Counted from the first letter of the stretch, positions 35,283 to 52,128 are shown. The stretch is DNA of 64,000 nucleotides from Aurantimicrobium sp. INA4 (GCF_027924525.1 NZ_AP027040.1:1364001-1428000); one strand, 5' to 3'. Numbers and translations: made by a program. Notes: generated by a model not told the origin, from the sequence alone.

Positions 35283-36677
35283 ATGTCTCACGACATGACA
35301 ACTCCCAACGGCAATCACATGCACACTGTCGACCTCGAAACAATGAAGCTTCGCGAGCAAGTTTTTGAATACGCTCGCCGACGCATGAATTACGACCCAC
35401 CACCGCTGGATGGCCCCAAAACCATCAGCCAACTTCGTAAAGAAGTCCCCGAGACGGTCACCGAAGAGGGCTTAGGCGGATTGGAAGCACTGAATCTTTT
35501 TGAGAATGTGCTTGCTGAGGCAACGATTTCTAACGATCACCCCAACTACCTTTCCTTTATACCTTGTGCACCCACCGAGGCAGCAACACTGTTCGACCTC
35601 ATCGTCTCTGCCTCAACCATTTATGGTGGCTCCTGGATGGAGGGTGCTGGTGCGGTGTATGCCGAGAACCAGGTACTCGAGTGGTTAGCCCGCGAAGCTG
35701 GTTTGCCAGAAGGCGCTGGAGGCGTCTTTGTGCAGGGCGGAACCCTAGGAAACCTCTCAGCCCTTGTTGCAGCACGTCACACTGCCACAGAGGCTCTCAA
35801 GGCCGCTGGGAAGGCAGTGCCTAAGTGCTGGCGCTTTGCCTGCAGCTCTGAAGCTCACTCGTCTCTCAAAGCAGCTGCCCGTGTGATGGATGTGGACATT
35901 GTTCCTATTCCCGTCAACGCAGAAGGCCGCCTCACCGGTCAAGCACTAGCCGAGACTCTCGAAGGCGACTGGGACGGCATCTTTGCTGTGGTGGCAACCG
36001 GTGGAACAACCAACTTTGGCATCGTAGATGAACTCGAAGAAGTGGGTAATGTCACCAAGGCACACGATGTGTGGTTCCACGTGGACGGCGCCTACGGCAT
36101 CGCAGCGATGCTGGCGCCGAGCACGAAGCACCTCTTTGCGGGCGTTGCCCTGGCGGATTCGTTCATTGTTGACCCACACAAGTGGTTGTTTGCTCCTTTC
36201 GATGCGTGTGCCCTGGTGTACCGCGATCCCGAGCTTGGTCGCGTTACCCACACCCAGCACGCTGAGTACCTTGATGCACTCGAGAACCCTGAAGAGTGGA
36301 ACCCGAGTGACTACGCCTACAACCTGACGCGTCGTCCCCGTGGACTGCCACTCTGGTTCTCATTGGCAACCTATGGCGTCTCTGCCTACCGTGAAGCCAT
36401 CGAACAAAACATTCAACTGGCATACAAGATTGCTGATGAGATCCGTCGTCGTCCCGATCTTGAGCTAGTTCGTGACCCCCAGCTCTCTGTAGTGGTGTTC
36501 GTGAAAAAGGGTTGGACTCTGGAGGATTACACCAAGTGGTCCAACAAGCTGCTGGCAGATGGCATCGGATTCGTTGTTCCCAGTTCACACAAGGGCGAGC
36601 CCAACACACGCTTTGCCATTGTGAATCCCCGAACAACCTATGAATCTTTGGTTCAAATCCTCGACACGATGGTCTAA
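35283..36677 (+). CDS. PLP-dependent (group II) amino-acid decarboxylase
   Basis: This fold-type-I decarboxylase is related to aromatic-amino-acid, glutamate and diaminobutyrate decarboxylases and yields an amine and CO2. The PLP lysine lies in IVDPHKWLFAPFD. Other family features are HPNYLSFIPCAPT, the GGTLGNLSALVAARH cofactor loop, and WFHVDGAYG with the conserved Asp. I start at ATG 35283, giving 464 residues, because the extra 27 codons from ATG 35202 look untranslated; both are possible. It precedes an agmatine-deiminase-like gene by 19 nt, so the two probably form an operon. The substrate is not determined. Confidence 0.86.
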   Translation: MSHDMTTPNGNHMHTVDLETMKLREQVFEYARRRMNYDPPPLDGPKTISQLRKEVPETVTEEGLGGLEALNLFENVLAEATISNDHPNYLSFIPCAPTEAATLFDLIVSASTIYGGSWMEGAGAVYAENQVLEWLAREAGLPEGAGGVFVQGGTLGNLSALVAARHTATEALKAAGKAVPKCWRFACSSEAHSSLKAAARVMDVDIVPIPVNAEGRLTGQALAETLEGDWDGIFAVVATGGTTNFGIVDELEEVGNVTKAHDVWFHVDGAYGIAAMLAPSTKHLFAGVALADSFIVDPHKWLFAPFDACALVYRDPELGRVTHTQHAEYLDALENPEEWNPSDYAYNLTRRPRGLPLWFSLATYGVSAYREAIEQNIQLAYKIADEIRRRPDLELVRDPQLSVVVFVKKGWTLEDYTKWSNKLLADGIGFVVPSSHKGEPNTRFAIVNPRTTYESLVQILDTMV

Positions 36678-36696
36678 CTAGGAATACGGTCTTATC

Positions 36697-37725
36697 GTGA
36701 CATCTCGTGAATTCCACATGCCAGCTGAATGGGCTGAGCATGAGCGCACTTGGATGGCCTGGCCTTCCTCCGGTTACACCCTCGGTGAAAGGGAGGAGCT
36801 CGCCAATGAAGCACGAAAGTGTTGGTCAGATGTGGCCAACACCATCGTGCGCTTCGAGCCGGTCACCATCCTGGTTGATCCCAGTGCCGTTGACGAAGCA
36901 AAAAAGTGGTTAGACCCTCAAGTTGAGATCTTGGTTGCCCAGCTCGATGACGCGTGGATGCGAGACATAGGTCCCACGTTTGTTCGCGACAGCTCAGGAA
37001 AGCTCGCTGGAGTGAACTGGATTTTCAATGGCTGGGGCGGCCAAAGTTGGGCAAGCTGGGAACACGATTCCCAAGCAGCCACCACGATTCTGGACTCCAT
37101 CGGTGTTCCCCGGATTGACTCCCCGCTGACCAACGAGGGTGGTGGAATCCACGTCAATGGTTCTCGCACCGTCATGATTACCGAAACAGTTCAGCTTGAT
37201 CCAGGCCGCAACCCTGACTGGACCAAAGAACAGGTAGAAGCAGAACTACATCGCACGCTCGGTGTTGATCACGTGATCTGGATGCCACGAGGTCTCACGC
37301 GTGACTATGACGAGTTTGGAACACGTGGACACATTGACATTGTGGCCTGCTTTGCAAACGAGGACACTGTTCTTTTCCATGATCAAAAGAACCAAGAACA
37401 CCCCGACTACTGGATCAGCCAAGAGGTGCGCAGAGTTCTCAAAGCCGCTCGCGATTCAGAAGGAAACAAGCTCAACGTCATTTCTGTACCAGCCCCTGAG
37501 GTGTTGCAAGATGACGAAGGCTGGGTCGACTACAGCTACATCAACCATTACGTGTGCAATGGCGCAGTAATTTTGTGCGCATTCGATGACGCGAACGATG
37601 AGAAAGCCAGAAAGGTACTCTCCAAGGCCTACCCCGGTCGTGAAATCGTGCTCGTGGATGCTCGCCCACTTTTTGCTCGAGGTGGCGGAATTCACTGCAT
37701 AACGCAGCAGCAACCCAAGGCTTAG
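36697..37725 (+). CDS. Agmatine deiminase / peptidylarginine-deiminase-like hydrolase
   Basis: This 342-residue guanidino-group hydrolase of the AguA/PPAD fold converts agmatine to N-carbamoylputrescine in known members. Active-site elements are MRDIGPTF, NEGGGIHVNG, GTRGHID with the catalytic His, and GGGIHCITQQ with nucleophile Cys334. The start is GTG 36697. Together with the upstream decarboxylase it could form a two-step amino-acid to amine to ureido route. N-carbamoylputrescine amidase is not in the window. The stop overlaps the convergent ferredoxin gene by 4 nt. Confidence 0.85.
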   Translation: MTSREFHMPAEWAEHERTWMAWPSSGYTLGEREELANEARKCWSDVANTIVRFEPVTILVDPSAVDEAKKWLDPQVEILVAQLDDAWMRDIGPTFVRDSSGKLAGVNWIFNGWGGQSWASWEHDSQAATTILDSIGVPRIDSPLTNEGGGIHVNGSRTVMITETVQLDPGRNPDWTKEQVEAELHRTLGVDHVIWMPRGLTRDYDEFGTRGHIDIVACFANEDTVLFHDQKNQEHPDYWISQEVRRVLKAARDSEGNKLNVISVPAPEVLQDDEGWVDYSYINHYVCNGAVILCAFDDANDEKARKVLSKAYPGREIVLVDARPLFARGGGIHCITQQQPKA

Positions 37726-38045
37726 TAGTTCTTTTCTGGGACGTGAAACGTCCCGCCATCAAGTTCGTCTGTGATGGGAATCTGACAGCTCAGCCGTGAG
37801 TTCTCCAGGCGTTCACTCATAGTGCCATCCAGCATTTCCAGTTCGAACTCCTCTGGCGGTGCGCAATGAGCCAGGGTGTCTGAATCGACGTACACATGGC
37901 AGGTAACGCAGACAAGTGCGCCTCCGCACAATCCGAACATTCCCGGCACCACATTGCGCACCCCAGCATCCATCACGGAGTCACCGACTCTGCCCACCAC
38001 GTCACGGCTCTCCCCCTGAGCGGTGATGAATGTGAGCTTCGGCAT
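37722..38045 (-). CDS. [2Fe-2S] ferredoxin (adrenodoxin type)
   Basis: This 107-residue electron carrier has cluster ligands Cys40, Cys46, Cys49 (CGGALVCVTC) and Cys87, the spacing of adrenodoxin/putidaredoxin-type proteins that feed cytochromes P450. It is the last gene of the seven-gene - strand operon and lies 5 nt after the alcohol dehydrogenase. The same operon encodes a 3Fe-4S ferredoxin and one FAD reductase, so the single P450 of the cluster may have two alternative electron donors. Confidence 0.93.
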   Translation of the reverse strand: MPKLTFITAQGESRDVVGRVGDSVMDAGVRNVVPGMFGLCGGALVCVTCHVYVDSDTLAHCAPPEEFELEMLDGTMSERLENSRLSCQIPITDELDGGTFHVPEKNY

Positions 38046-38050
38046 GAGAG

Positions 38051-39109: not shown

Positions 39110-39147
39110 GGCATTACCTTTCGATGTGTGTACAGCGTGAGATGAGC

Positions 39148-40362
39148 CTACGCGTGGGTTAAACCTACTTGGTTTCGATAGCCCATCACTTTGGAACGCA
39201 TACCGACGCCACACACTCCGACAAGCTCGCCGCGTTTGTAGTAGCCGTAGATACAGTCGCTACCTACTTCGCCGTCAAGAAGCGTGATTTCGTCTGCTTG
39301 GTCTATGAGGCCATAGGCCAACAAGCTGACATCAAACTGGTCGCTCCAAAAGGAAGGAATAGGGGCAAAAGGCTTAGAAATTTCTTCTTCGAAAGCATTC
39401 GTGTCACCGGAAAGTTGTAGCGCAACTTCCTTGCCCACCTTGCGTGCCATCTCGGTAGGAATATTCCAGTGCTCCACCCGGCGTGGGTAGTCACAGAACT
39501 GAGGTATGGGGAAACGAGCCACGTCCCCGACAACATAAACGTTCTGCCAAACAGTGCCATCTTTCCTGAGCACGCGCAGAGAAGAATCTGCTCCCACACC
39601 GCCGTCGAGGTCGACGTCGTTGTCGTGGAGCAATTCCAAGTTGGGCTCTGACCCGATAGCCTCAATGAGCACTTGGGTGTAAAGCTCAACGCCAGAATCC
39701 AAGAGCACGCTCTCGACCTGATCGCCACCGGTCACCTTTGTGATGGTGGAACCCATAAAGAAGTTCACGCCCTGGGCCTCTTGACGAGCCTGAATATCTC
39801 GCGCGAGCTCCAGCCCAAGGGGGCGTAACAAGGGGACTGGTCCCTTGCCAATCACGGTGACGTGAGCACCCAGCTTCTTTGCCGTTGCCGCAACTTCACA
39901 CCCAATGAAACCTGCGCCATAGACAACAACTCGGGTTCCCTCAGAAATCTCAGAACGCAACGCAATCGCATCATCCAGTGAGCGGATTACGTGAGTGCCC
40001 TTCTTGGGCATGCCCGGCAGGTCCAGGCGGCGTGGACGAAGTCCGGTTGCAATGACCAGTGCTTCGTACTGGTGTTCAACACCGAGGTCGTCAGTGACAA
40101 CCTGATTTTCGAGGTCAACGCGTTCGACTTTGCGTCCCAGAATCCATTCCACATCAGCAACGGCCTCCCCCAGTGGGAAAGCAACAGCTTCGTGATTCAC
40201 GTCTGCTGCAAGCACTTCCTTGGACAGCGGAGGTCGGTTATAGGGAGGGTGAGTTTCCTCCCCGATAGCCACGATAGGACCGGCATAACCGCTTCGACGT
40301 AGCGACTCTGCTACGCGAAGTCCGCCCATTGAAGCGCCAATGATGAGAACGGGGCGCGTCAT
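39148..40362 (-). CDS. FAD-dependent ferredoxin reductase (P450 redox partner type)
   Basis: This 404-residue NAD(P)H:ferredoxin reductase is of the putidaredoxin/rubredoxin-reductase family. The FAD-binding GASMGGLRVAESLRRSGY is at the N-terminus, the NAD site is VVVYGAGFIGCEVAATAKKLG (about 145-165), and the second FAD motif is NVYVVGDVARFP. It lies 9 nt after the 3Fe-4S ferredoxin gene. It should pass electrons from NAD(P)H through one or both ferredoxins to the P450 at 45264-46511. Confidence 0.93.
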   Translation of the reverse strand: MTRPVLIIGASMGGLRVAESLRRSGYAGPIVAIGEETHPPYNRPPLSKEVLAADVNHEAVAFPLGEAVADVEWILGRKVERVDLENQVVTDDLGVEHQYEALVIATGLRPRRLDLPGMPKKGTHVIRSLDDAIALRSEISEGTRVVVYGAGFIGCEVAATAKKLGAHVTVIGKGPVPLLRPLGLELARDIQARQEAQGVNFFMGSTITKVTGGDQVESVLLDSGVELYTQVLIEAIGSEPNLELLHDNDVDLDGGVGADSSLRVLRKDGTVWQNVYVVGDVARFPIPQFCDYPRRVEHWNIPTEMARKVGKEVALQLSGDTNAFEEEISKPFAPIPSFWSDQFDVSLLAYGLIDQADEITLLDGEVGSDCIYGYYKRGELVGVCGVGMRSKVMGYRNQVGLTHA

Positions 40363-40371
40363 GAAAATTCC

Positions 40372-40563
40372 TTAGTCGACGATAAAGATGGCCTGCATGG
40401 GGCAGACATCGATAGCGGCCTGAACATTGTCACGCTCGCTGTCGTCAGCAGTTGCGTGGTATTCAAGCTTGTCGTCGTCATTGAGACGGAAAACATTGGG
40501 TGCCTCGAATACACACTGGCCGTAGTGCTGGCACTTTTCCATGTCGACGTTGATCTTGATCAT
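40372..40563 (-). CDS. [3Fe-4S]-type ferredoxin for cytochrome P450
   Basis: This 63-residue ferredoxin has ligands Cys11, Cys17 and Cys54 (VCPMQAI). The position that would be the fourth cysteine is Tyr14 (CQHYGQC), so a 3Fe-4S cluster is expected. Such proteins are standard P450 partners in actinobacteria. The ATG overlaps the stop of the FAH-family gene by one base (TAATG). It lies directly before the reductase gene. Confidence 0.93.
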   Translation of the reverse strand: MIKINVDMEKCQHYGQCVFEAPNVFRLNDDDKLEYHATADDSERDNVQAAIDVCPMQAIFIVD

Positions 40564-41441
40564 TATTCTTTTTCCTCCACGTTGGATGGGTATAGATCTT
40601 TGGAAGGTGTGCGAATTCCGCGGAATTCCCAGTCACCGCCCAAAGCAGTTGAGATAACTTCTTCACTCTCGGTGGGTTGCGCTCCCACGTCTGTGCGAAT
40701 CGGAGTGGGGCCGACAACGATGTGGTTGGTCAACTTACCGAGGCCTTCAACTTCAACCTCGACAACATCACCAGGTTGAACTGGACGTGAGAAGGCGGGG
40801 GTTCCCGAAAAGAGCATGTCACCAGGAACCAAGGTGATGGTGCGGGCAATATCTGCAACCAGATAGTGCATGTCCCATTCCATGTTGTCAGTGTTGTCTT
40901 CTTGCTTGACCTCACCGTTGACATAGGTGCGAATCATCTTGTTGCGGAAGTCCCAGTCAGTAACCAGACCAGGGCCGACGGGAGCCAGGGTGTCTGACCC
41001 CTTCACGCGCAGCATGGAACCCGCGTCCGTGTCACGGAAGTCGTGCAGTCCGTAGTCATTACCCACGGTGTATCCGGCGATGTAGTCGCCGGCTTCTTCA
41101 GGGCTGATGTTGCGGCAGGTCTTGCCGATCACAATGACGATTTCGCCCTCATAGTTCAACCACTTGCAGCCTTCGGGGCGCACAACAGCGCCCTTGTGGC
41201 TGTTGATAGCCGTGATGGGCTTGTGGAAGTAGGTGGGTGCATCAGGGAGCTTGGTCATGAACTCCTTGGTGCGGCTGTCGTAGTTCAGGTGAACAGCAAT
41301 GATCTTGGTGGGCTCCGAAGGTGGCAGATGTTGCGCATCTTCGATAGCTACACGACGGCCGTCGGCGGCAACAAGGAACTCTCCGTCGCGTACGGTTTGC
41401 ACCACAGCGCCGTCAAGCAGGATTCGACGATATTCAGTCAC
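40563..41441 (-). CDS. Fumarylacetoacetate hydrolase-family enzyme (HpaG/HpcE-like isomerase/decarboxylase)
   Basis: This FAH-fold enzyme of 292 residues has the metal motif YEGEIVIVIGK with conserved Glu and further active-site residues in FHKPITAINSHKGAV and GNDYGLHDF. In homoprotocatechuate pathways such proteins decarboxylate or isomerise the product after ring cleavage. I choose GTG 41441, which overlaps the dioxygenase stop by 8 nt; the frame is open to 41477. The last 40 residues form a polar tail (TESEEVISTALGGDWEF). It lies between the dioxygenase and ferredoxin genes, fitting a step after ring opening. Confidence 0.88.
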   Translation of the reverse strand: MTEYRRILLDGAVVQTVRDGEFLVAADGRRVAIEDAQHLPPSEPTKIIAVHLNYDSRTKEFMTKLPDAPTYFHKPITAINSHKGAVVRPEGCKWLNYEGEIVIVIGKTCRNISPEEAGDYIAGYTVGNDYGLHDFRDTDAGSMLRVKGSDTLAPVGPGLVTDWDFRNKMIRTYVNGEVKQEDNTDNMEWDMHYLVADIARTITLVPGDMLFSGTPAFSRPVQPGDVVEVEVEGLGKLTNHIVVGPTPIRTDVGAQPTESEEVISTALGGDWEFRGIRTPSKDLYPSNVEEKE

Positions 41442-42342
41442 GTGAGAGAACCATGTCCTTTGGAAGAGGGAAGCCACCTTCGGGCTTCGGAAAGTAGATG
41501 TGAACCTGACCGGTGCCGACCGAGTTCTCGTAGTCTGAGTACATCACACCTTTAGAGGTGTTGGCCTCTTCACCAATGGCGCCAGCCATGGTGAGGTAGT
41601 GGCTGAAGTTTGCCTCAGGCTTGAACTTCATAAACTCCGGCATGGTCTCAAGAACTCGCTTGTGATCTCCAGCCTTGAACCATTCGATGCGTTCTTCATC
41701 AGCAGCACGTGCTTCAGGAGAAAAGATGTGGCTGGGGTCACTGGCTTCGTGTTTGCGCAGATCACGCAGCTTGTAGAAGGTGTGTGAAAGTGCACCCGAA
41801 GCCAAGAGAAGAACCTTGCGGTCTGAGTCACGAATAGCTTCACCGAGGGCACGACCTGCACGCAAGAAGTCTTCGGTGGTTGCTGTCTGGCACACCGAGA
41901 CGGAAACCCAACGCTTGTCGAGTCCCTTACCGAGGTAGTCCCACAGGTTGACGGTGGCATACATGATGGGCAGGTAGGGGTCGGAAATGGGGGTAATCCA
42001 TGTTCCGTTCTTTTCGTCATACTTGACCACCGACTCAGCAAGCTCACGGTCACCCTTGAAGGAGTAGGGAATCTGTGACATTCCGCGAGGAAGTTCTTCC
42101 GCGGTGTACTTTCCCTCACGGTGGTCGTGTGAGGTAATGACAAACTCAACGGTGGTAGCCCAGTGCGAGTCAAGCACGATAACGGTGTCGTAGTCGAGCT
42201 TCTCCATGACGTCCTTGCGCAGCTTTTCGAGGCCAGGAACAAGAGAGATTTCTTTGCCCTCATTGAGCTCAAGGCGAGTCTCCTTGGGGAGCATGATTGT
42301 GGGTACGTGCGCAAGAATTGCAGCGCCTACTACTTCGCCCAT
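41434..42342 (-). CDS. Class III (LigB-type) extradiol ring-cleavage dioxygenase, homoprotocatechuate-like
   Basis: This 302-residue non-haem iron enzyme resembles 3,4-dihydroxyphenylacetate 2,3-dioxygenase (HpcB/HpaD). The first iron ligands lie in AAILAHVPTIML and the catalytic His region in VIVLDSHWATTVEF. A further conserved segment is LLLASGALSHTFYKLRD. The start is ATG 42342 because AAGGAA lies 7 nt upstream; it begins 2 nt after the aldehyde dehydrogenase stop. It opens a catechol ring to a semialdehyde, the substrate of that dehydrogenase. The exact catechol is inferred only from similarity. Confidence 0.88.
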   Translation of the reverse strand: MGEVVGAAILAHVPTIMLPKETRLELNEGKEISLVPGLEKLRKDVMEKLDYDTVIVLDSHWATTVEFVITSHDHREGKYTAEELPRGMSQIPYSFKGDRELAESVVKYDEKNGTWITPISDPYLPIMYATVNLWDYLGKGLDKRWVSVSVCQTATTEDFLRAGRALGEAIRDSDRKVLLLASGALSHTFYKLRDLRKHEASDPSHIFSPEARAADEERIEWFKAGDHKRVLETMPEFMKFKPEANFSHYLTMAGAIGEEANTSKGVMYSDYENSVGTGQVHIYFPKPEGGFPLPKDMVLSRD

Positions 42343-42344
42343 GG

Positions 42345-43808
42345 TTATTCCTTCCATCCATTTGGTGAAACTACGGTGTTCTTTACATCTGCATAGAAGT
42401 CGAAAGACCATGTGCCGCCATCGCGGCCAATGCCTGACTTCTTGGAACCTCCGAATGGTGCACGCAGGTCACGAACAAAGAAGCAGTTGACCCAGATTGT
42501 TCCGGCCACTATCTCGTCAGTGATTTTCTTGGCGTGCTCCTTATTTCCGGAGACTACAACGGCGGCAAGTCCAAACTCTGTGCCGTTGGCTTTCTCAATG
42601 ACTTCCTCATCGGTGTTGAAGGTCATCATGCACAGCACAGGACCAAAGATTTCGCTCGAGACAATTTCAGAACCGGGGGTTGGGTTCTTCACCAAGGTTG
42701 GCTTGAAGAACAGTCCGCCCAACTCTTCGTTGGGTTCACCGCCCCAGACAATCTCTTGGCCTTCAGCCTTGGCGCGATCAACAAATCCCATAACTCGATC
42801 AAAATGGACCTGGTGGATTTGTGGGCCAATGTCGGTGTCCTCATCACGAGGGTCGCCCTGTTTAATCTCAGCTGCTTTCTCGCCAAACTTCTTGGCAAAT
42901 TCGTCAGCGATGTTTTCGTGAACGAAGATGCGTGTTCCAGACAGACACACCTGCCCAGCGTTGTCGTATTGTTCAACGGCAATTTCTGCAGCGAGGTCGA
43001 GATCTGCATCTTCGAGAACAATCATGGGGCTCTTGCCACCAAGCTCGAAGGAACAGGGGGTCAAGTTGTCGGCAGCTGCGCGAGCAATGACCTTGGCGGT
43101 GGGCACAGAACCGGTGAAGGAGATGCGGTTGATATCAGGGTGAGCAACCAGTGCAGCTCCGGCTTCTTTTCCGTAACCTTGCACAACATTGAAGACGCCG
43201 TCGGGAATACCCGCCTGCTTGGTTAGGTCAGCAAAGAATGACGCACTCAGTGGTGTCCACTCGGCTGGCTTGAGCACGACAGTGTCTCCTGCGGCGAGCG
43301 CGGGGCCAATCTTCCAGGTTGCCAACATCAAGGGGGCGTTCCAGGGAGTAATCAGTGCTGCTACACCAGAAGGGTCCCAGCTGACATTGTTGGTGTGACC
43401 ACGAGTTTCGAAGGGTTCGTGGTGTAAATCGTTGAGTGCCCAGTCTGCGAAGAATCGAATGTTCATCGCCACGCGAGGCATGACTCCTCTGCGGTGTGAG
43501 CGCAACAAGGAACCATTGTCCATGGTTTCAAGCTGAGAAAGGGTCTCATTGTTTTCTTCTACCAGGTCAGCAAGTTTGTGAAGCAGTACACCGCGGCCTT
43601 GGGGGCCGAGCTTGGCCCAAGCGGGAAAAGCTGCGCGTGCTGCTGCAACAGCAGCATCTACTTCTTCCTGTCCTCCGCGCGAGATTTCTCCAAGGAAGGT
43701 TCCGTCAATGGGCGAAGTGTTGGTGTAGGTCTGAGCTGAGGAGACGCGCTGACCGCCAATGTAGTGGCGGGTGTCAATCTTGGCACCGGCGACGCTAATT
43801 GTGCTCAT
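42345..43808 (-). CDS. NAD-dependent aldehyde dehydrogenase (HpaE-like CHMS dehydrogenase)
   Basis: This 487-residue aldehyde dehydrogenase is the first gene of the operon. NAD-binding segments are ALITPWNAPLMLATWKIGPA and ISFTGSVPTAK. The catalytic Glu lies in ELGGKSPM and the nucleophile Cys in NAGQVCLSGTRIF. The C-terminus has RDLRAPFGGSKKSGIGRDGG. It is closest in feel to 5-carboxymethyl-2-hydroxymuconate-semialdehyde dehydrogenases, which fits the following dioxygenase; a gamma-glutamylamino-aldehyde role (PuuC-like) is the alternative. The promoter overlaps the palindrome at 43840-43861. Confidence 0.92.
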   Translation of the reverse strand: MSTISVAGAKIDTRHYIGGQRVSSAQTYTNTSPIDGTFLGEISRGGQEEVDAAVAAARAAFPAWAKLGPQGRGVLLHKLADLVEENNETLSQLETMDNGSLLRSHRRGVMPRVAMNIRFFADWALNDLHHEPFETRGHTNNVSWDPSGVAALITPWNAPLMLATWKIGPALAAGDTVVLKPAEWTPLSASFFADLTKQAGIPDGVFNVVQGYGKEAGAALVAHPDINRISFTGSVPTAKVIARAAADNLTPCSFELGGKSPMIVLEDADLDLAAEIAVEQYDNAGQVCLSGTRIFVHENIADEFAKKFGEKAAEIKQGDPRDEDTDIGPQIHQVHFDRVMGFVDRAKAEGQEIVWGGEPNEELGGLFFKPTLVKNPTPGSEIVSSEIFGPVLCMMTFNTDEEVIEKANGTEFGLAAVVVSGNKEHAKKITDEIVAGTIWVNCFFVRDLRAPFGGSKKSGIGRDGGTWSFDFYADVKNTVVSPNGWKE

Positions 43809-43839: not shown

Positions 43840-43861
43840 AATCATTCGTATACTAATGATT
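43840..43861. promoter_or_regulatory. MarR-type operator A (aldehyde dehydrogenase operon / PuuD-like gene)
   Basis: Half-sites AATCATTCGTA and AATCATTAGTA (on opposite strands) make a 22-nt inverted repeat with one mismatched pair. It lies between the divergent operons, and a possible TAGTAT -10 box of the leftward operon falls in its centre. Related palindromes are at 45223, 48136, 50467 and 50566. Confidence 0.75.
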
Positions 43862-43922
43862 ATTACTAGGATATAAAAGTCAAGCAAGGTTAAAGTCTGT
43901 TTTTATTGGGAAAGGTGTGCTG

Positions 43923-44621
43923 ATGGCCCGCCCGAGAATCGCCATACTTGCTCGCTTTGCAGAAAACACTTCTGCTACTCGTTATGCCGCCGTTATCACC
44001 GCACGACGCCTTGCAGAGGCAGTCTGGGCAGCAGGAGGAGAACCCCTTACCTTCCTCCCCGTCGCAGGCAGCAACTGGGCTGAACGCCTTGTCGGCATTG
44101 ATGGCGTGCTCATGCCAGGTGGTGCCGATGTCAACCCTCGAAGCTATGGTCAAGAGATTTCTTCAGAGCACGTATATGACGTTGATGACTTAGCTGATGA
44201 CGTCGATATTTCTTTGGTGAACTATGCCCTCGGCACCGGCATGCCCGTTTTGACTATTTGCCGCGGGACACAGATCACAAATGTTGCACGCGGGGGAACG
44301 CTGGTTCAACACATGAGTGAACCCCACCAGCACTACGTTGCTGAGGTCACCATTGAGAAGTATCACTCTGAAATGGGCTTAAGTTCAGCAGTGGTTGAGG
44401 CCTCCTGCTATCACCATCAGGTGATAGATCAGCTTGGCGAAGGCATCGAAGTCATTGCTCGTTCAGCACAAGGCGGTGTCGAAGCAATCAAGATTGATGC
44501 ACCAGGGTGGGCTTTTGGTGTGCAATGGCACCCAGAAGACAACTACGACACCAACAAGCCACAAGCAGAACTGTTTGAACGCTTTGTCAGCGAAGCTGCC
44601 AAGTATGGAGCTTCGAGCTAA
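43923..44621 (+). CDS. Gamma-glutamyl-gamma-aminobutyrate hydrolase-like (peptidase C26, PuuD-type)
   Basis: This class-I glutamine-amidotransferase-fold hydrolase has 232 residues. The nucleophile is Cys113 in LTICRGTQITNV, and the His203/Glu205 pair lies in VQWHPED. GVLMPGGADVNP and CYHHQ are typical of the family, which releases glutamate from gamma-glutamyl amides. ATG 43923 is chosen because AAAGG is 7 nt upstream; GTG 43917 is the alternative. It shares operator A with the divergent catabolic operon. It is probably the last step of a gamma-glutamylation route. Confidence 0.9.
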   Translation: MARPRIAILARFAENTSATRYAAVITARRLAEAVWAAGGEPLTFLPVAGSNWAERLVGIDGVLMPGGADVNPRSYGQEISSEHVYDVDDLADDVDISLVNYALGTGMPVLTICRGTQITNVARGGTLVQHMSEPHQHYVAEVTIEKYHSEMGLSSAVVEASCYHHQVIDQLGEGIEVIARSAQGGVEAIKIDAPGWAFGVQWHPEDNYDTNKPQAELFERFVSEAAKYGASS

Positions 44622-45191: not shown

Positions 45192-45220
45192 TTGACGAAT
45201 GAAGGGGACATATTGTTATC
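45192..45220 (+). promoter_or_regulatory. Possible promoter of the P450 gene
   Basis: TTGACG (45192-45197) and GTTATC (45215-45220) are 17 nt apart. The palindrome starts 3 nt after the -10 box, over the expected start point, a repressing position. Confidence 0.4.
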
Positions 45221-45222
45221 CT

Positions 45223-45248
45223 GAGATTATTCGTATCCGAACAATCTC
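45223..45248. promoter_or_regulatory. MarR-type operator B (P450 / marR)
   Basis: Half-sites GAGATTATTCGTA and GAGATTGTTCGGA (opposite strands) form a 26-nt inverted repeat with two mismatched pairs. It ends 16 nt before the P450 start codon and about 98 nt before the marR start. Confidence 0.8.
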
Positions 45249-45263
45249 AACGAGGAGACCTCG

Positions 45264-46511
45264 ATGAAGCCATCGTCGCCCTATAACTTGGCCGATTTAG
45301 ACCTGTTTTCGCACGGAGCCCCCTGGGTGGCTTTCGAGGAAATCCGCAAGAACACTCCTGCGCACTTCAGCGACGAAGGTGCCGACGGAAGTGGCTTCTG
45401 GTCCGCCACTCGCTATCACGACATTGTGAAAGTTCTTCGTGACTCTGAAACCTTCACCAGTGAACGCTTCACCAACTTGGAAGAAGTAACCCCCGAGCAA
45501 GAAGAAGCACGTCGATCACTCCTCGAGACCGACGGTGCTCGTCACCGCGCGATGCGTCGACTGATTCAGTTCGAATTCACACCCGCTGCTGTTGCTCGCT
45601 ACGAAAACTTCCTCCGCGGCCTCACCGCGAGTACCCTCGACAACGCTTTTGCCAAGGGCGAATTCGACTTCGTCGAGGACGTTGCTGCCGACTTCCCCAT
45701 TCGTGTTCTTGCCAAGATCTTGGACGTGCCCGATGAAGACACTGGTCAGCTCATCGACTGGGGTAACCGCATGGTTGGCTTCTCCGACCCTGAGCACGCA
45801 GATGTGCTGATCAATTCCGAGGAATCAGAGAAGTACAAGAACCTTCCCTTCCGCTCCCCCGCCGCCCTTGAGGTATTTGAATACGGTGACGAGCTTCGTC
45901 GCCAGCGTCTGGGCAAGAACGGCACCGACCTGGTTTCTGTTCTGGTTAACACAGCGCCTTCTGATGGCATCCCGCTCTCTGACCGTGACTTCCACACCAA
46001 CTTCTTGCTCTTGGTCGTTGCAGGTAACGAGACCACTCGTCACACCATTACCCACACAATGAACAACCTCATCAATAACCCAGATCAGCTTGCTCTTCTG
46101 CAGGAGAACCCAGAGCTCATCCCTTGGGCTGTTGAAGAGTTCCTGCGCTATGCAAGCCCGGTTTACCACTTCCGTCGCACTGCAACCAAAGATGTGGATT
46201 TCAACGGCCAGCTCATCAAGAAGGGCGAGAAGATGGTCGCATGGTTTGCATCAGGTAACCGTGATGAGAGTGTCTTCGAAAACCCCAACAAGATGGATGT
46301 CACACGTAACCCCAACGAACACGTAACCTTTGGTCGCGGTGGCCCCCACATGTGCTTGGGTAACTCACTGGCTCGTATTGAGCTGCGCGTGATGTTCGAA
46401 GACTTGATTAGTCGTGTTGACAAGGCAGAGCGCACTGGAGATGTTGACTTCCTGCGTTCGAACTTCGTGCACGGCATCAAGCGCATGCCCGTCAAGGTCA
46501 CTCTGCGCTAA
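45264..46511 (+). CDS. Cytochrome P450
   Basis: This soluble bacterial P450 (class I type) has 415 residues. The oxygen-activating I-helix motif is AGNETTRH (Ala253 to Thr258), the ExxR motif is in VEEFLRYASP, and the haem loop FGRGGPHMCLG has the thiolate ligand Cys364. The N-terminus is not membrane-bound. GAGGAG lies 6 nt before the ATG. Sequence resembles the actinobacterial CYP124/125/142 and linalool-hydroxylase group. Electron partners are encoded in the neighbouring operon. It may hydroxylate the ring or side chain before ring cleavage; substrate unknown. Confidence 0.95.
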   Translation: MKPSSPYNLADLDLFSHGAPWVAFEEIRKNTPAHFSDEGADGSGFWSATRYHDIVKVLRDSETFTSERFTNLEEVTPEQEEARRSLLETDGARHRAMRRLIQFEFTPAAVARYENFLRGLTASTLDNAFAKGEFDFVEDVAADFPIRVLAKILDVPDEDTGQLIDWGNRMVGFSDPEHADVLINSEESEKYKNLPFRSPAALEVFEYGDELRRQRLGKNGTDLVSVLVNTAPSDGIPLSDRDFHTNFLLLVVAGNETTRHTITHTMNNLINNPDQLALLQENPELIPWAVEEFLRYASPVYHFRRTATKDVDFNGQLIKKGEKMVAWFASGNRDESVFENPNKMDVTRNPNEHVTFGRGGPHMCLGNSLARIELRVMFEDLISRVDKAERTGDVDFLRSNFVHGIKRMPVKVTLR

Positions 46512-46559
46512 TAACACTCCCGCCGACGGGGTTCGTCACAACCCCTATTGGCCTCCACA

Positions 46560-46590
46560 AAGAATGGCTCCCCTCACGGGAGCCATTCTT
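46560..46590 (+). terminator. Hairpin terminator after the P450 gene
   Basis: A 13-bp perfect stem (AAGAATGGCTCCC, 46560-46572, with 46578-46590) has a CTCAC loop. It ends the P450 transcript before the next gene; no long T run follows. Confidence 0.7.
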
Positions 46591-46625
46591 ACACCCGCTG
46601 CTACTACTGATTTAGGCTGAACACT

Positions 46626-48054: not shown

Positions 48055-48135
48055 AAGTCGCTCCTTGGGTAGAGAATGAGTCACATAAGAAACAGGCATC
48101 AAATATTTTGTAGTTTTCTAGCGAATCGGTACTAT

Positions 48136-48153
48136 TCGTTAGTACCCTAACGA
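48136..48153. promoter_or_regulatory. MarR-type operator C (glutamine-synthetase-like gene / amidotransferase)
   Basis: TCGTTAG-TACC-CTAACGA is a perfect 7-bp inverted repeat matching the core TTxGTAxCCxAACGAT of the other sites. It follows directly on a TACTAT box (48130-48135), a likely -10 of the rightward gene. Confidence 0.7.
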
Positions 48154-48191
48154 TAGCGTTATGACACCAAACTTGCCACAAAGGAGTTGCA

Positions 48192-49544
48192 ATGGTTAAC
48201 GATCTGACCAAACTTCGAGATGACCTCGGGGAACGCGGAATCGATGTTCTGCGCGTCATGTTCTCAGACGTACTGGGCATTGCCCGATCCAAGGACATCC
48301 TGGTCAGCCAACTCGATAAGGCCTGCCACAACGGTCCAGCGTTTAGCCAGGGCGTATGGACCACCACCACGGGTGGTGAATTCCACGAGGCAAACGGTAT
48401 TGCTAACGACGGGCTCCAAGACTTCTTTACTCAGATTGTTCCCAGCACAATTTCGCCCTTGGCTTGGGAGCCTGGGGTTGCCTACGTCGTCGGGGATGCA
48501 TTCAATCCCGATGGCAAACCCAACATGATGTCCCCCCGCTCGGTACTACAAAAAGTCATCAATAGTTACAAAGAGCTAGGGCTTCACCCCGTTGTTGGAC
48601 CAGAGCTCGAGTTCTACATTGCCAACAAAGATGAAGATGGAAACTTTGTTCGCGCGCTGTCACAAACCGGTCAGGTATACACAACCGGAACGTTGGTTGA
48701 CCCAGATGGGGACTTCCTTCACCTCATGCGCATGCTGGATAACCTCAACATAGGTGCATTTGCGGGTAACCACGAATTCAGCCCTAGTCAGTACGAGGTC
48801 AACCTCTGGCACAGCGAAGCGCTTGATGCAGCTGACCGCACCTTCTTCTTCAAAGCTGCCGTGAAGGACATCATTGCTCAACGCGGAAAGCACGCTTCCT
48901 TCTTGGGTAAGCCTTGGAGTGACGAGGGTGGTTCAGGTTTCCACCTGCACTTCTCGGTAACCGATGCTGACGGCATCAACAAGATGCACGACGGCCGTGG
49001 AAACCTTTCTGCTGCTGCCAAGATGCTTATTGCGGGAATAACCAAGCACGCTAACGCATTGACAGCTTTCACTAACCCCACCGTCAACGCATTCAAGCGA
49101 CTTGGCCCTGACACTCTTGCCCCCTACCGCTCCAACTGGGGTTACGACAACCGTTCGTGCATGGTTCGCGTTCCACCAGAGCGTGGACAAGGAACACGTC
49201 TTGAGATTCGCGTGGGCGATGGCGCAGCGAACCCCTACCTTGTTATCGCAGCTATCCTGGCGGCAGGTCTCGACGGCATCGTCAATGAACTCGAATGCCC
49301 ACCAGATGCAGTTGGTATGGCTTATGACAATGAGGGTGCGGAAGTTCTTCCAGAAACGTTTGGACAGGCCCTGGACTCTCTTGAGAAAGATGATGCTCTT
49401 CGCACCCAGATGTCTGAGGAACTCATCAACGTCTTCATGGTTCTTAAGCGTGATGAAATTGCACGCTACGAAGCTGCAGTTCCCGATCCCAGTACCCGTG
49501 AAGTTACGGACTGGGAGATTACGGAATACGCTGCGTGTTACTAG
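48192..49544 (+). CDS. Glutamine-synthetase-like gamma-glutamyl-amine ligase
   Basis: This 450-residue glutamine-synthetase-fold ligase has family motifs GPELEFYIANKD, GNHEFSPSQYEVNLWHSEALDAADR, KPWSDEGGSGFHLHFS and the region RLGPDTLAPYRSNWGYDNRS with the ATP-binding residues. It lacks the adenylylation-site region of GlnA and stands among catabolic genes. It therefore probably ligates glutamate to an amine, as PuuA or GlnA3/GlnA4 do. AAAGGAG lies 5 nt before ATG. Operator C controls it with the divergent amidotransferase gene. Confidence 0.9.
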   Translation: MVNDLTKLRDDLGERGIDVLRVMFSDVLGIARSKDILVSQLDKACHNGPAFSQGVWTTTTGGEFHEANGIANDGLQDFFTQIVPSTISPLAWEPGVAYVVGDAFNPDGKPNMMSPRSVLQKVINSYKELGLHPVVGPELEFYIANKDEDGNFVRALSQTGQVYTTGTLVDPDGDFLHLMRMLDNLNIGAFAGNHEFSPSQYEVNLWHSEALDAADRTFFFKAAVKDIIAQRGKHASFLGKPWSDEGGSGFHLHFSVTDADGINKMHDGRGNLSAAAKMLIAGITKHANALTAFTNPTVNAFKRLGPDTLAPYRSNWGYDNRSCMVRVPPERGQGTRLEIRVGDGAANPYLVIAAILAAGLDGIVNELECPPDAVGMAYDNEGAEVLPETFGQALDSLEKDDALRTQMSEELINVFMVLKRDEIARYEAAVPDPSTREVTDWEITEYAACY

Positions 49545-49572
49545 ACACCTGCTTCTCTCCCAGCAGAGAGAT

Positions 49573-49614
49573 ATAAGTAGATCCCCCGGTGCTTCCACCG
49601 GGGGATCTACTTAT
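49573..49614. terminator. Bidirectional terminator between the GS-like and ADC-like genes
   Basis: A 19-bp perfect stem (49573-49591 with 49596-49614), core AGATCCCCCGGTG, with a CTTC loop lies in the convergent gap. It is the longest perfect stem in the window. Confidence 0.85.
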
Positions 49615-49635
49615 CTGTTGAGACGAACAGAAATA

Positions 49636-50451
49636 CTAAATGCTGGGATTTGAGCCGAGGTCGGCAACGAGAGTTCCACCGTTGAAGGTGGTGCCCACCT
49701 CGCGGAAGTAACCGCCCAGGATCTTCTCTACGGGAAGAATCGAGCCAAGCTCATCCCACTGTGAGTCTCCAAGTGTGAGCTCTGCGGTTCCGCCCCAGGC
49801 TTGACCGAGGTCGAGGTCCACGCCACCCATGGTGATGAGCTGGTCGAGTGAGTTACCAGCGCCGGGGGTAATCGATGGGACCCATCGGTTGTGAAGCATC
49901 TTGTGGCCGTTGACAAAGCCGTTGCTTTCGACCGGTCCAGTGAGGGTCACCTTCGCAGTTGCCAGGCGGTGGTCGTAGGCGGCGAGGCTGGCACCAAACT
50001 GTGCGCCGGCCTCGAGACGAGGTGTTGCCTTACCGCGGTTGTAGACACGGGTGGAATGCATGGAACCAAGCTTCTTGGGGTAGCCTTGGAACCAACCACG
50101 TGCCATAGCGAAGTCTTTGGTGACCCAGATTGCTACACAGCGGCTGTAGGTAACGCCTTCGTATTTGCAGCGGACAACCACGAAGGTCTCCATGTACTGC
50201 GAACGGTCAGGATCAAGAAGTTCTTCAAAATCATCAGAGCAGGACTGCCAGTCTGCCCAAATGAGGGCAACAGCACCTGGCTCTTCATCTGCAAGCTCGA
50301 GCTCGGGAGGAAGAATGGCACGCACATTGGCAGGATCGGTCACATACTCGACAGTGAGCAGTGTGCCGGAATAGTGCCATGGCATCTCGGGAATGATGGC
50401 GCTTTTCCCCGTGGGGGTCTTTGGCGCAAGAAAGCCTTTGAGTTCAGTCAT
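49636..50451 (-). CDS. Acetoacetate-decarboxylase-fold protein
   Basis: This 271-residue protein has the acetoacetate-decarboxylase (ADC) fold: PWHYSGTLLTVEYVTDPANVRAILP near the start, ALIWADWQSC, a conserved central VAIWVTKDFAMARGWFQGYPKKLG with candidate Schiff-base lysines, and GGTLVADLG at the end. Real ADC cleaves acetoacetate; many homologues act on other keto acids or imines. ATG 50451 has no ribosome site but a TATATT box 8 nt before it, so the mRNA is probably leaderless; the frame is open to 50517. Operator D lies just upstream. Confidence 0.85.
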   Translation of the reverse strand: MTELKGFLAPKTPTGKSAIIPEMPWHYSGTLLTVEYVTDPANVRAILPPELELADEEPGAVALIWADWQSCSDDFEELLDPDRSQYMETFVVVRCKYEGVTYSRCVAIWVTKDFAMARGWFQGYPKKLGSMHSTRVYNRGKATPRLEAGAQFGASLAAYDHRLATAKVTLTGPVESNGFVNGHKMLHNRWVPSITPGAGNSLDQLITMGGVDLDLGQAWGGTAELTLGDSQWDELGSILPVEKILGGYFREVGTTFNGGTLVADLGSNPSI

Positions 50452-50459
50452 AGGAAAAG

Positions 50460-50465
50460 AATATA
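50460..50465 (-). promoter_or_regulatory. -10 box of the ADC-like gene, leaderless arrangement
   Basis: TATATT on the - strand ends 8 nt before ATG 50451 with no Shine-Dalgarno in between. The MarR-type site at 50467-50488 abuts it on the upstream side. Confidence 0.5.
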
Positions 50466-50466
50466 T

Positions 50467-50488
50467 GGTCATTCGTATCCAAACAAAC
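50467..50488. promoter_or_regulatory. MarR-type operator D (ADC-like gene), weak
   Basis: ATTCGTATCCAAACAAA matches operator B at most core positions (TTCGTATCC-AAC) but its right half is degenerate. It adjoins the -10 box of the ADC-like gene, and its centre is 100 bp from the centre of operator E. Confidence 0.5.
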
Positions 50489-50565
50489 CTTTTTGACAAA
50501 GATAACTTTTCGGCCAAAAGCGCCTTTTTGGCTTGACGTGGGGGACAAATGTTGGGAAAGTTAGA

Positions 50566-50589
50566 AAATCGTTTTTATCCGAACGATTT
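50566..50589. promoter_or_regulatory. MarR-type operator E (APC permease gene)
   Basis: AAATCGTT and AACGATTT separated by 8 nt (TTTATCCG) form a perfect 8-bp arm palindrome, 27 nt before the permease ATG. The central TATCCGAAC matches operator B. Confidence 0.75.
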
Positions 50590-50616
50590 ATATATCTGAA
50601 CTCAATGAGGAGATCA

Positions 50617-52128
50617 ATGATGTCAACCGCGCAAACGGCTGAAGACACCTCTCTTAAAAAAGGACGCCTTGGCGTCATAGGAATTGTCTTCTTCGTCGTC
50701 GCAGCTTCCGCGCCCCTTGTGGGCATGACAGGTGCTGTACCTGTCGCCATGCTCGCCGGTAACGGCGCAGCCGCCCCAGGAGCGTACCTCGCAGTAGGTA
50801 TCGTTCTTTTATTGTTCAGCGTTGGTTACACCGCCATGGCGCACAAAGTCACCAACACTGGTGCCTTCTTCGCTTACGTCGGTCGTGGTTTGGGCGTCAA
50901 GGCTGGTGTTGCTTCGGCATTCATCTCCATCGTGGGATACATCACCATCCAGCTAGCTATCTATGGCTTCTTTGGTGCGATTCTCTCTGGCCAGATGGCA
51001 GCAATTGGTATCGACCTACCTTGGTACGTCTGGAGCATCTTTGCCTGGGTACTTGTCACGGCTCTGTCCCTGTTGAGCGTTGATGTGGGTGCCAAGGTTC
51101 TGGGAACACTCATGATCCTCGAACTCCTCTCTCTTATCATCACCGGAGTTGCCATTTTGGCTAATGGTGGCCCTGAAGGCTGGAACCTTGCAGCATCGTT
51201 CTCACCTGATCAGATTTTCGCTGGTGGATTCGCTGGCGGTGCTGGTATCGCAATCGCGTTCGCTTTTGCGTCCTTCATTGGTTTCGAAGCCACAGCCATC
51301 TACGGTGAAGAATCAATCAACCCCAAGAGAACAGTGCGTCGGGCAACCTACTGGGCAGTCGGAATCATCACCGCTGTGTTTGCAATCGTCTCCTTTGCCA
51401 TGGTGACCGGTATGGGTGCCAACGCAATCTACGACGAGGTCATCGCTCGTTCCTCTATTGAGGGAGTGCCACTTGCAGATCCTGCTGCCGTGCTGTTCTC
51501 ACTCGCAGACCAATACGTAGGTGGCTGGATGGTTACAGTTATGAGCTGGTTGGTTGTTTCCAGCCTCTTCGCTGGACTGCTTGCATTCCAGAACGCAACC
51601 GGTCGTTACTTCTTCGCAATGGGACGCGGTGGTGTTCTGCCACAACGCTTTGGAACTACCAACAAAGCTGGTGCTCCACAAGCTGGCGTTATCCTCACCT
51701 CAATCATTGCGCTCGTCGTAATCGTTCTCTTCGCAATCGGAAACCTTGACCCTGTACTCAACCTTTTCTTCTGGATGAGCGCAATTACTGCAATTGCAAT
51801 CATTCTGGTTGAAATCCTTGTGAGCATCGCGGTCATCGCTTACTTTGCTAAGAACGAAGGCGCTAACCTCTGGCAGGGCAAGATTGCTCCTGCGCTCGCG
51901 CTGATTTTCCTTGTGGTGGGTGAATACCTCTTGATGAGCCGCTTCAACCTACTTGCAGGAACAGCAGCTGAAGGGGTTGACCCATCACTTCCAGAAAGCG
52001 CGTGGGCACTGAGCCCATTCGGCTGGTTCCTCGTTCTGACACCTTTCATTGCTGGAATCATCGGCTTCATCGTCGCTGCAATTCAGGGCAAGGAAAAGGC
52101 TGCGCTGACCGAGGACATTCTGTCCTAA
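50617..52128 (+). CDS. APC-superfamily amino acid/amine permease
   Basis: This transporter has 503 residues and about twelve membrane helices. The family hallmark of helix 1 is FFVVAASAPLVGMTGAVP; the helix-6 region AFASFIGFEATAIYGEESINP is also conserved. The start is ATG 50617 (GAGGAG 4 nt upstream; ATG 50620 equally possible), not the longer frame from 50533. It should import an amino acid or amine used by the island. It shares the operator region with the divergent ADC-like gene and ends at a long hairpin. Confidence 0.93.
   Translation: MMSTAQTAEDTSLKKGRLGVIGIVFFVVAASAPLVGMTGAVPVAMLAGNGAAAPGAYLAVGIVLLLFSVGYTAMAHKVTNTGAFFAYVGRGLGVKAGVASAFISIVGYITIQLAIYGFFGAILSGQMAAIGIDLPWYVWSIFAWVLVTALSLLSVDVGAKVLGTLMILELLSLIITGVAILANGGPEGWNLAASFSPDQIFAGGFAGGAGIAIAFAFASFIGFEATAIYGEESINPKRTVRRATYWAVGIITAVFAIVSFAMVTGMGANAIYDEVIARSSIEGVPLADPAAVLFSLADQYVGGWMVTVMSWLVVSSLFAGLLAFQNATGRYFFAMGRGGVLPQRFGTTNKAGAPQAGVILTSIIALVVIVLFAIGNLDPVLNLFFWMSAITAIAIILVEILVSIAVIAYFAKNEGANLWQGKIAPALALIFLVVGEYLLMSRFNLLAGTAAEGVDPSLPESAWALSPFGWFLVLTPFIAGIIGFIVAAIQGKEKAALTEDILS

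Follow-up and report, generated by a model that had tools for sequence, protein, structure and literature searches.

A conserved gene cluster in Aurantimicrobium sp. INA4 joins gamma-glutamylation to aromatic meta-cleavage genes and may serve the catabolism of a tyramine-type amine

The Puu pathway of putrescine consists of PuuP, PuuA, PuuB, PuuC and PuuD, and the homoprotocatechuate or 4-hydroxyphenylacetate (4-HPA) pathway, with HpaD, HpaE, HpaG, HpaH and HpaI, converts a catechol bearing an Ar-CH2-COOH side chain to pyruvate and succinate semialdehyde. The aniline and 1-naphthylamine systems use a Rieske dioxygenase, and AtdA2, a protein of the glutamine amidotransferase (GATase) type, lies there beside the AtdA1 ligase. 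According to the available text of the NpaA1 paper, a glutamine-synthetase-like (GS) ligase of these systems (AtdA1/NpaA1, 'GoaS') glutamylates the aromatic amine ahead of oxygenation and ring cleavage (PMC11335346). Here we describe a gene cluster, the island, found within a stretch of 64,000 nucleotides that we call the window (bases 1,364,001-1,428,000 of the complete, single-contig genome of Aurantimicrobium sp. INA4, 1,581,031 bases). With the Puu pathway the island shares a permease, a GS-like ligase and a C26 hydrolase, but it is without PuuB, adds a cytochrome P450 and ring cleavage, and its GS and C26 proteins score below the Puu cut-offs. Its enzymes resembling HpaD, HpaE and the C-terminal half of HpaG, together with an HpaR-like MarR regulator, recall the homoprotocatechuate pathway; however, HpaB, HpaH and HpaI were not found in the genome, and a protein of the acetoacetate decarboxylase (ADC) fold is present instead. 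As in the aniline-type systems a GATase stands beside the ligase, but a P450 occupies the place of the Rieske dioxygenase and ring cleavage is of the HpaD type.

We find that the island is a real, conserved catabolic cluster and, with good support, one regulon, probably under MarR; gene families, conservation, co-inheritance, a common palindrome and the module structure were all computed. Its substrate is quite probably an aromatic amine and likely an arylethylamine of the tyramine/dopamine type. More tentatively, and a little short of calling it probable, we propose a MarR-controlled regulon for the catabolism of tyramine (or of a close 4-hydroxyphenyl-ethylamine or dopamine), in which the glutamyl group would be retained through ring cleavage. 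An earlier note, made from the sequence alone, had suggested that an amine is imported, gamma-glutamylated, hydroxylated and ring-cleaved; of this, one conserved catabolic unit joining gamma-glutamylation to aromatic-amine meta-cleavage stands, and we infer the substrate and each individual reaction.

Pfam and NCBIfam scans of 20 window proteins recovered all the families that the earlier note had listed, the small ferredoxin only with a lower length limit for open reading frames (ORFs), and added two genes missing from its inventory, a group II pyridoxal-phosphate (PLP)-dependent decarboxylase and a PAD_porph/agmatine-deiminase-like gene. ORF starts are over-long for several genes, and for the ADC and APC genes the likely starts below follow from comparison with relatives. 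The genes, in window coordinates, are:

35202..36677, plus strand: group II PLP-dependent decarboxylase (aromatic/diaminobutyrate type), at the island edge; PF00282, 197 bits
36697..37725, plus strand: PAD_porph/agmatine-deiminase-like hydrolase, paired with the decarboxylase; PF04371, 370 bits
37722..38045, minus strand: [2Fe-2S] ferredoxin, lineage-specific; PF00111
38051..39214, minus strand: zinc alcohol dehydrogenase (ADH)/aldehyde-reductase-like (Ahr-like), lineage-specific; PF08240; NF047908, 292 bits, cut-off 470
39148..40362, minus strand: ferredoxin reductase (FdR), core, presumed P450 electron supply; PF07992/PF14759
40372..40563, minus strand: 63-aa ferredoxin, core; ORF at the lower length limit, with a cysteine pattern presumably of the [3Fe-4S] P450-partner type
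40563..41477, minus strand: FAH-family protein (decarboxylase/isomerase-like, as the HpaG C-terminal half), core; PF01557, 187 bits; TIGR02303, 211 bits, cut-off 276
41434..42411 (likely start ~42342), minus strand: LigB-type extradiol dioxygenase, HpaD-like, core; PF02900, 84 bits, cut-off 26
42345..43808, minus strand: HpaE-like aldehyde dehydrogenase (ALDH), core; TIGR02299, 527 bits, cut-off 638
43917..44621, plus strand: Peptidase C26 (PuuD-like gamma-glutamyl hydrolase); PF07722, 140 bits
44622..45173, minus strand: MarR/HpaR-like regulator, core; PF01047; TIGR02337, 56 bits, cut-off 121
45264..46511, plus strand: cytochrome P450, CYP125/CYP124-related, core; PF00067
46626..47354, plus strand: second class I GATase-fold hydrolase (the middle one, GAT2); PF00117
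47347..48102, minus strand: class I GATase-fold hydrolase GAT3, likely a gamma-glutamyl-amide hydrolase, core; PF00117
48192..49544, plus strand: GS-like protein, proposed gamma-glutamyl-amine ligase, core; PF00120, 307 bits
49636..50517 (likely start ~50451), minus strand: ADC-fold protein, MppR/Sbi00515-like, proposed hydratase-aldolase, core; PF06314, 191 bits
50533..52128 (likely start ~50605), plus strand: APC-family amino acid/amine permease, core; PF13520

The LigB protein was scanned against genome contigs of 84,980 species, yielding 85 relatives of which 80 were kept, and the loci were then searched by tblastn with the 20 window proteins (below, L-numbers denote loci or contexts in relatives and G-numbers genomes, G000 being the one that holds the window). 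The closest LigB relative is that of Aurantimicrobium minutum (95% identity). The order of the core, from APC to reductase, is the same in freshwater Microbacteriaceae, Rhodoluna and Microcella, and in other actinobacterial lineages much of the core is still linked in shuffled order. Core counts refer to 22 of the 60 clade loci, those whose 10-kb flanks are complete (in the other 38 a contig end cuts into the flanks); the clade excludes L062-L067 and 14 loci of the Streptomyces type. Eight of the 12 core genes, namely GAT3, P450, MarR, ALDH, LigB, FAH, the small ferredoxin (at a lowered score limit) and FdR, occur in all 22; ADC and GS are found in 21, APC in 19 and C26 in 16, that of L020 being of the other, puu-like C26 type. 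The earlier note had named a lack of conserved co-occurrence in relatives as what would speak against its gene set forming one unit, and the co-occurrence turned out to be conserved. For the core the set does hold as one unit; ADH (4/22), the PLP decarboxylase (4/22), the PAD_porph gene (3/22), the [2Fe-2S] ferredoxin (2/22) and the middle GATase are lineage-specific extras outside it. Close orthologs of the middle GATase occur only in L008 and L009, the count of 20/22 being a cross-match of GAT3 that we do not use. Likewise, three GATase-fold hydrolases and two ferredoxins are present in the window as the earlier note had it, and among the loci read this combination is confined to part of the genus (window, L008, L009). 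GC content does not shift across the island, and on this ground we reject a mobile island; 'island' therefore means a gene cluster and not a recent mobile element.

Co-inheritance was also evident in a family survey of 299 genomes (E up to 1e-120 for GS and P450, up to 1e-60 for LigB). GS and P450 occur in identical sets of 35 genomes, and LigB in 32, of which 31 contain all three; the sole genome with LigB only (G038) carries a P450 fragment at a contig end. G229, one genome of the same genus, is without GS, P450 and LigB. In a sample of the phylum LigB relatives were found in 36 of 396 genomes, G000 included. As an observation apart, a conserved small protein of ~86 aa (L012:1642-1899), sigma-factor region 4-like by eye, is represented by 25 proteins in 24 loci and adjoins FdR or APC in many of them; it gave no Pfam match at 1e-10 (one protein tested), and neither the window nor the G000 loci examined contain a match.

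Dyads were searched in the intergenic gaps of the window, followed by a consensus scan with a pattern built from four of the five gap sites. Each of the four divergent promoter gaps contains the same 20-bp palindrome, at the following predicted operators:

43841..43860: operator 1, gap ALDH/C26 (dyad search and consensus scan)
45226..45245: operator 2, gap MarR/P450 (dyad search and consensus scan)
48135..48154: operator 3, gap GAT3/GS (dyad search and consensus scan)
50468..50487: operator 4, gap ADC/APC (consensus scan)
50568..50587: operator 5, gap ADC/APC (dyad search and consensus scan)

In the 64-kb window the consensus has 10 strand matches at six places (0.44 expected); the four gaps account for five of these places, and the sixth is within the ALDH gene. 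As four of the five window sites shaped the pattern, the relatives constitute the independent test: in the 22 full loci we found 106 matches with at most 5 mismatches in 461,092 bases, compared to 9 in one base-shuffled control, and 89 of the 106 fall within the four gaps (17,039 of the 461,092 bases), with the other 17 elsewhere. A site is present in the P450/MarR gap in 22/22 loci, upstream of ALDH in 21/22, between APC and ADC in 18/19 and between GS and GAT3 in 14/21. A looser 16-base operator pattern gave 81 matches, a number equal to chance. Thus the common palindrome in all four gaps argues for one regulon, in line with the single regulator of the earlier note, and MarR would be the protein that binds it.

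The island GS keeps eight catalytic residues and Asp50 in 43 of 43 sequences, and its flap Glu, the position of which was set by the FEAP motif, is replaced by Leu in all 43 (we take the residue names to follow enterobacterial numbering). In the available text of the NpaA1 paper (PMC11335346) both the flap Glu (numbered Glu357 there) and Asp50 are lost in organic-amine ligases. Since the catalytic residues are kept and the flap Glu is lost as in those ligases, we propose from the sequence that the island protein is a gamma-glutamyl-amine ligase; of the two GoaS marks it shows the loss of the flap Glu, but not that of Asp50. Relative to GlnA it also contains an insertion, which is noted here apart from any letter-by-letter comparison with motif 15 (N-terminal loop). 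The PuuA model NF045547 scores 251 bits on the island GS (cut-off 650) and the PuuD model NF008471 72 bits on the island C26 protein (cut-off 266), which does pass the Pfam Peptidase_C26 threshold; no DAO-type oxidase above cut-off, as expected of PuuB, was seen among the island proteins. We therefore reject a putrescine pathway.

The best PDB relative of LigB is a 3,4-dihydroxyphenylacetate 2,3-dioxygenase, and its putative iron ligands, presumably the His/His/Glu set H12, H60 and E243, are conserved: H60 and E243 in 100 of 100 aligned sequences, H12 in 92 with 8 gaps. None of the HpaD, HpaE and HpaG equivalog cut-offs is reached (TIGR02298 133 of 316, 527 of 638 and 211 of 276 bits, the last for the C-terminal half). 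Genome searches agree with the earlier note that Puu-type and Hpa-type genes lie side by side without HpaB, HpaH or HpaI. HpaB has no match in the genome; the only gene of the FAA_hydrolase family is the FAH gene of the island itself, so that HpaH is missing; and the only PF03328 match above cut-off, the family searched for HpaI, reads as CitE-like (the searches did not extend to HpaC and HpaF). With HpaB, HpaH and HpaI missing, the standard 4-HPA pathway is rejected. The P450 finds its best PDB match in CYP125MRCA and keeps the heme Cys in 64 of 64 sequences.

The ADC-fold protein has MppR (4jm3) as its best PDB relative, followed by 6eej/4zbo, which we take to be Sbi00515. Lys148/Lys149 are present in 52 of 52 sequences within an RGW-Q-G-PKK motif that aligns to 4jm3 and 4zbo, and we assume the lysine of this motif to be the candidate Schiff-base residue. 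The MppR model TIGR04460 scores 189 bits (cut-off 380). In the part of PMC7820114 that was available, MppR condenses pyruvate with an aldehyde, and an aldolase role is suggested for Sso1221/Sso1222 of S. solfataricus in phenol degradation. The island protein thus resembles the MppR/Sbi00515 branch of the acetoacetate decarboxylase superfamily, but we propose that it catalyses the retro-aldol reaction as part of a catabolic pathway. Since the genome has only one FAA-family gene and we recognised none of the HpaI type, this reverse reaction is the economical reading, in which the ADC-fold protein would stand in for both HpaH (hydratase) and HpaI (aldolase).

Clues to the substrate come from the neighbourhood. 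Of 100 loci examined, 20 from several lineages have group II PLP decarboxylases, not all of one subtype, within the cluster or next to it, and G000 has two such genes in all. The best PDB match of the window decarboxylase is 4obu, followed by a DOPA decarboxylase, and the type found in L060, downstream of FdR with one small ORF between, also matches 4obu best; relatives with 48-49% identity lie between GAT3 and P450 in L161 and L162, where the gene of L162 overlaps P450 by 4 bases. The pair of decarboxylase and PAD_porph gene is kept in L004-L006 and L008, the latter protein scoring below agmatine deiminase cut-offs. Neighbours on the side of gamma-aminobutyric acid (GABA) include a GabT above cut-off with a Gdh-like gene in L006 (the same pair in L005), orthologs of aminobutyraldehyde dehydrogenase in L034 and L058 and of the puu-like ALDH in L012, a puu-like C26 in L020 and L022 and a gene like succinate-semialdehyde dehydrogenase (SSADH) a few genes from FdR in L007. 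G000 itself encodes a GabT that passes its cut-off (497.8 kb), an aminobutyraldehyde dehydrogenase (472 kb) that exceeds the cut-off of subfamily NF010000 but not that of TIGR03374, and, at 525-530 kb, a puu-like set of GS, C26 and ALDH separate from the island, so that other loci could provide the downstream steps that the island lacks. As a separate observation, this 1.58-Mb genome contains 13 aldehyde dehydrogenase family matches.

LigB relatives with 49-54% identity stand in Streptomyces loci with PvcA, TauD, HpaB and a flavin reductase (families named from L069): HpaB, an Asn-synthase-like and a quinone-reductase-like gene in 14 loci each, TauD in 13, PvcA in 12 and the flavin reductase in 9. 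By analogy this setting implies a catechol with an Ar-C-C-N side chain, presumably the substrate of LigB there, its nitrogen two carbons away from the ring; the Streptomyces clusters differ, however, in being probably biosynthetic, and no GS, FAH or HpaE partners were matched, with a weak P450 (25-27%) in L077 and L082 only. Where the homoprotocatechuate route yields succinate semialdehyde, a catechol of the form Ar-CH2-CH2-NH-gammaGlu would by analogy give pyruvate and gamma-glutamyl-aminobutyraldehyde, the PuuC substrate; the Puu-like and Hpa-like genes may thus be co-located because both routes would meet at this compound. The carbon balance, the group II decarboxylases, the GABA-side genes and the Streptomyces LigB setting together point to a tyramine-type substrate. 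In their own right, the Streptomyces-type loci (L069-L072 and L074-L083, Streptomyces and one labelled Streptosporangium) may represent a tyrosine-isonitrile product family with extradiol ring opening.

In the proposed route, the amine would be imported by the APC permease or produced by a PLP decarboxylase, and the GS-like ligase would form gamma-glutamyl-tyramine. The P450, with ferredoxin and reductase, would hydroxylate the ring to give gamma-glutamyl-dopamine, the HpaD-like LigB enzyme would open it, the HpaE-like dehydrogenase would oxidise the semialdehyde and the FAH protein would decarboxylate the product. The MppR-like ADC-fold protein may then hydrate it and cleave it by a retro-aldol reaction to pyruvate and gamma-glutamyl-4-aminobutyraldehyde, which a PuuC-type dehydrogenase, here probably encoded outside the island, would convert to gamma-glutamyl-GABA, from which C26 would free glutamate and GABA; GAT3 probably resets stalled gamma-glutamyl amides. 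That the amine of tyramine stays masked by gamma-glutamylation while the P450 hydroxylates the ring, the ring is opened, the product is decarboxylated and an MppR-type hydratase-aldolase acts on it, yielding pyruvate and gamma-glutamyl-GABA, is conceivable on this evidence, yet we stop somewhat short of regarding it as probable.

Distant contexts show how the modules combine. We read 20 of them (L143-L162; 18 from the 36 genomes with a match in the phylum sample, two from the family survey), with gene labels that are similarity labels, the similarity being low in places. GS is found in 15/20 (that of L153 labelled puu-like GS), P450 in 15/20 (one only 25% identical), the HpaE-like ALDH in 16/20, and ADC and FAH in 14/20 each; ADC adjoins LigB in 12 of 33 short contexts. 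L155 and L156 contain the whole core in a different order together with a second ALDH adjoining a C26 gene; in L155 the two overlap by 4 bases and the ALDH has PuuC as its best model (564.9 bits, cut-off 850), and in L156 they lie side by side (the model scan covered L155 alone). The C26 proteins of L094 and L155 gave no NCBIfam match at the thresholds used. Other contexts hold parts of the set: L146 and L148 have ADC, LigB, FAH and a class III aminotransferase, with GS and P450 not in the stretch examined; L150 is without GS and P450, L158 without GS, ALDH and FAH, and L159 without P450, ALDH and ADC. A reduced island occurs in genus g13: four of its genomes (metagenome-assembled, completeness 77-89%) contain GS and P450, with no LigB match at E up to 1e-60. 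The order on the contigs concerned (L163-L166) is APC-GS-GAT3-P450-MarR-ferredoxin, L166 being cut within P450; three contigs extend far enough to show FdR, and one of them has it. All four lack ADC between APC and GS, and the three longer ones also lack C26-ALDH-LigB-FAH between MarR and ferredoxin. Palindromes, MarR and ferredoxin are present in L163-L165, and P450, GS and GAT3 of these contigs have dN/dS values of ~0.05-0.09, i.e. they are under purifying selection. As ADC is absent together with the ring-cleavage genes at this locus, it appears tied to ring cleavage.

Several of our observations weigh against a tyramine route with a retained glutamyl group. The g13 locus keeps GS, P450 and GAT3 without LigB, ADC, ALDH, FAH and C26; ring hydroxylation alone would be pointless there, which suggests an independent use for the GS/P450 module, one that the proposed route does not explain. 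The P450 has its nearest relatives in CYP125/124, enzymes that oxidise aliphatic carbon, and the GS retains Asp50. Among the 22 full loci, 6 have no C26, a PuuC-type ALDH is not a constant member of the cluster, and the ALDHs that flank it in L004-L006, L046, L052 and L068, like one of those in L058, do not belong to the GABA type. Class III aminotransferases do occur in L143 and L145-L149, but the two tested (L143, L145) score below the GABA-transaminase cut-off. No ADC was seen in the stretches L150-L154 and L159, L063 and L064 have no neighbouring ALDH, FAH or ADC, and neither dyad search nor consensus scan placed a palindrome near the window decarboxylase.

Part of this would be accounted for if the glutamyl group came off before ring cleavage, with the P450 hydroxylating the carbon that adjoins the nitrogen to release glutamine and an arylacetaldehyde, GAT3 acting as a glutaminase or hydrolase, a homoprotocatechuate-type route leading on to pyruvate and succinate semialdehyde, and a catecholamine or tyramine as ligase substrate. 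Such early C-N cleavage would explain why g13 keeps GS, P450 and GAT3 under purifying selection without ring cleavage, it suits a relative of aliphatic hydroxylases and the SSADH-like gene of L007, and the usual substrates of Hpa-type enzymes bear a carboxymethyl side chain. We nevertheless consider it unlikely: it needs a ready-made catechol or another hydroxylase, with no HpaB in the genome, it leaves the C26/PuuC-type pairs and the GABA-type neighbours unexplained, and LigB, HpaE and FAH all score under the Hpa equivalog cut-offs. A route of the same topology for another substrate (4-hydroxybenzylamine, octopamine, aminophenol/aniline or gamma-glutamyl-tyrosine/DOPA) is, in our estimate, rather improbable. 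Nothing in this analysis fixes the side-chain length, and a GS-like ligase of the GoaS class accepts anilines and naphthylamines in the available text of PMC11335346; against this, the neighbouring amino-acid decarboxylases and the tyrosine-isonitrile-like setting of the Streptomyces LigB favour Ar-C-C-N, and no aniline-type Rieske dioxygenase is among the island proteins.

One could suspect that a 4-hydroxyphenylacetate-like pathway and a polyamine (Puu) pathway happen to adjoin each other without being related, since each half resembles a known pathway, g13 has the GS/P450 module alone and L160 carries the ring-cleavage half in a version with HpaB, with no GS or P450 in the stretch read. We reject this as highly improbable, given that the order is conserved and the palindrome common to the whole set, that GS and P450 are found in exactly the same 35 genomes, 31 of them with LigB, that the genes stay linked though rearranged in other lineages and that G000 has its separate puu-like set. 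It is similarly very doubtful that the island makes an amine-derived natural product with P450, extradiol dioxygenase and ligase, like the PvcA-HpaB-LigB clusters of Streptomyces. The LigB relatives in those probably biosynthetic clusters and the resemblance of the ADC-fold protein to MppR of enduracididine biosynthesis would fit, but the permease, the MarR-type regulator, the two gamma-glutamyl-hydrolase-like classes, the HpaE/HpaG-like steps and the GABA-type neighbours speak for catabolism, no carrier-protein or assembly-line domains were seen among the island proteins, and the cluster is retained in a genome of 1.58 Mb.

Each step of the tyramine route is known in kind, and for the combination we found no published description in the open-access subset searched; a search of titles and abstract openings in the open-access subset of PubMed Central for a gamma-glutamyl-tyramine catabolic cluster returned none, and the main text of a light/dark RNA-seq paper (PMC8591293) contains none of the terms sought. 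If true, the route would be a new one for aromatic biogenic amines, recovering nitrogen and side-chain carbon as glutamate and GABA, in contrast to their early loss as ammonia and 4-hydroxyphenylacetate. It would join the breakdown of aromatics to the Puu/GABA route, both in streamlined actinobacteria of fresh water and in distant relatives; amine catabolism of the GS-like kind would gain a branch that depends on a P450, and an MppR-type enzyme of the acetoacetate decarboxylase fold would acquire a catabolic role in place of HpaH and HpaI. It would also explain the role of a 15-17 kb cluster in ultramicrobacteria with 1.6-Mb genomes, and it is directly testable in culturable strains; Rhodoluna lacicola and A. 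photophilum are reported to be open to genome editing (PMC11577799).

A second aromatic region lies at ~379-402 kb of G000 (L108, L095), with a protocatechuate 4,5-cleavage-like set that has its own LigB, along with IclR, P450, PEP-synthase-like, ferredoxin, reductase and 4-hydroxybenzoate-hydroxylase-like genes (named by eye, except LigB). Within the window, positions 53013-54218 upstream of purH encode a dimethylargininase (above cut-off, residues 153-400) with a membrane-like N-terminal extension of ~150 aa.

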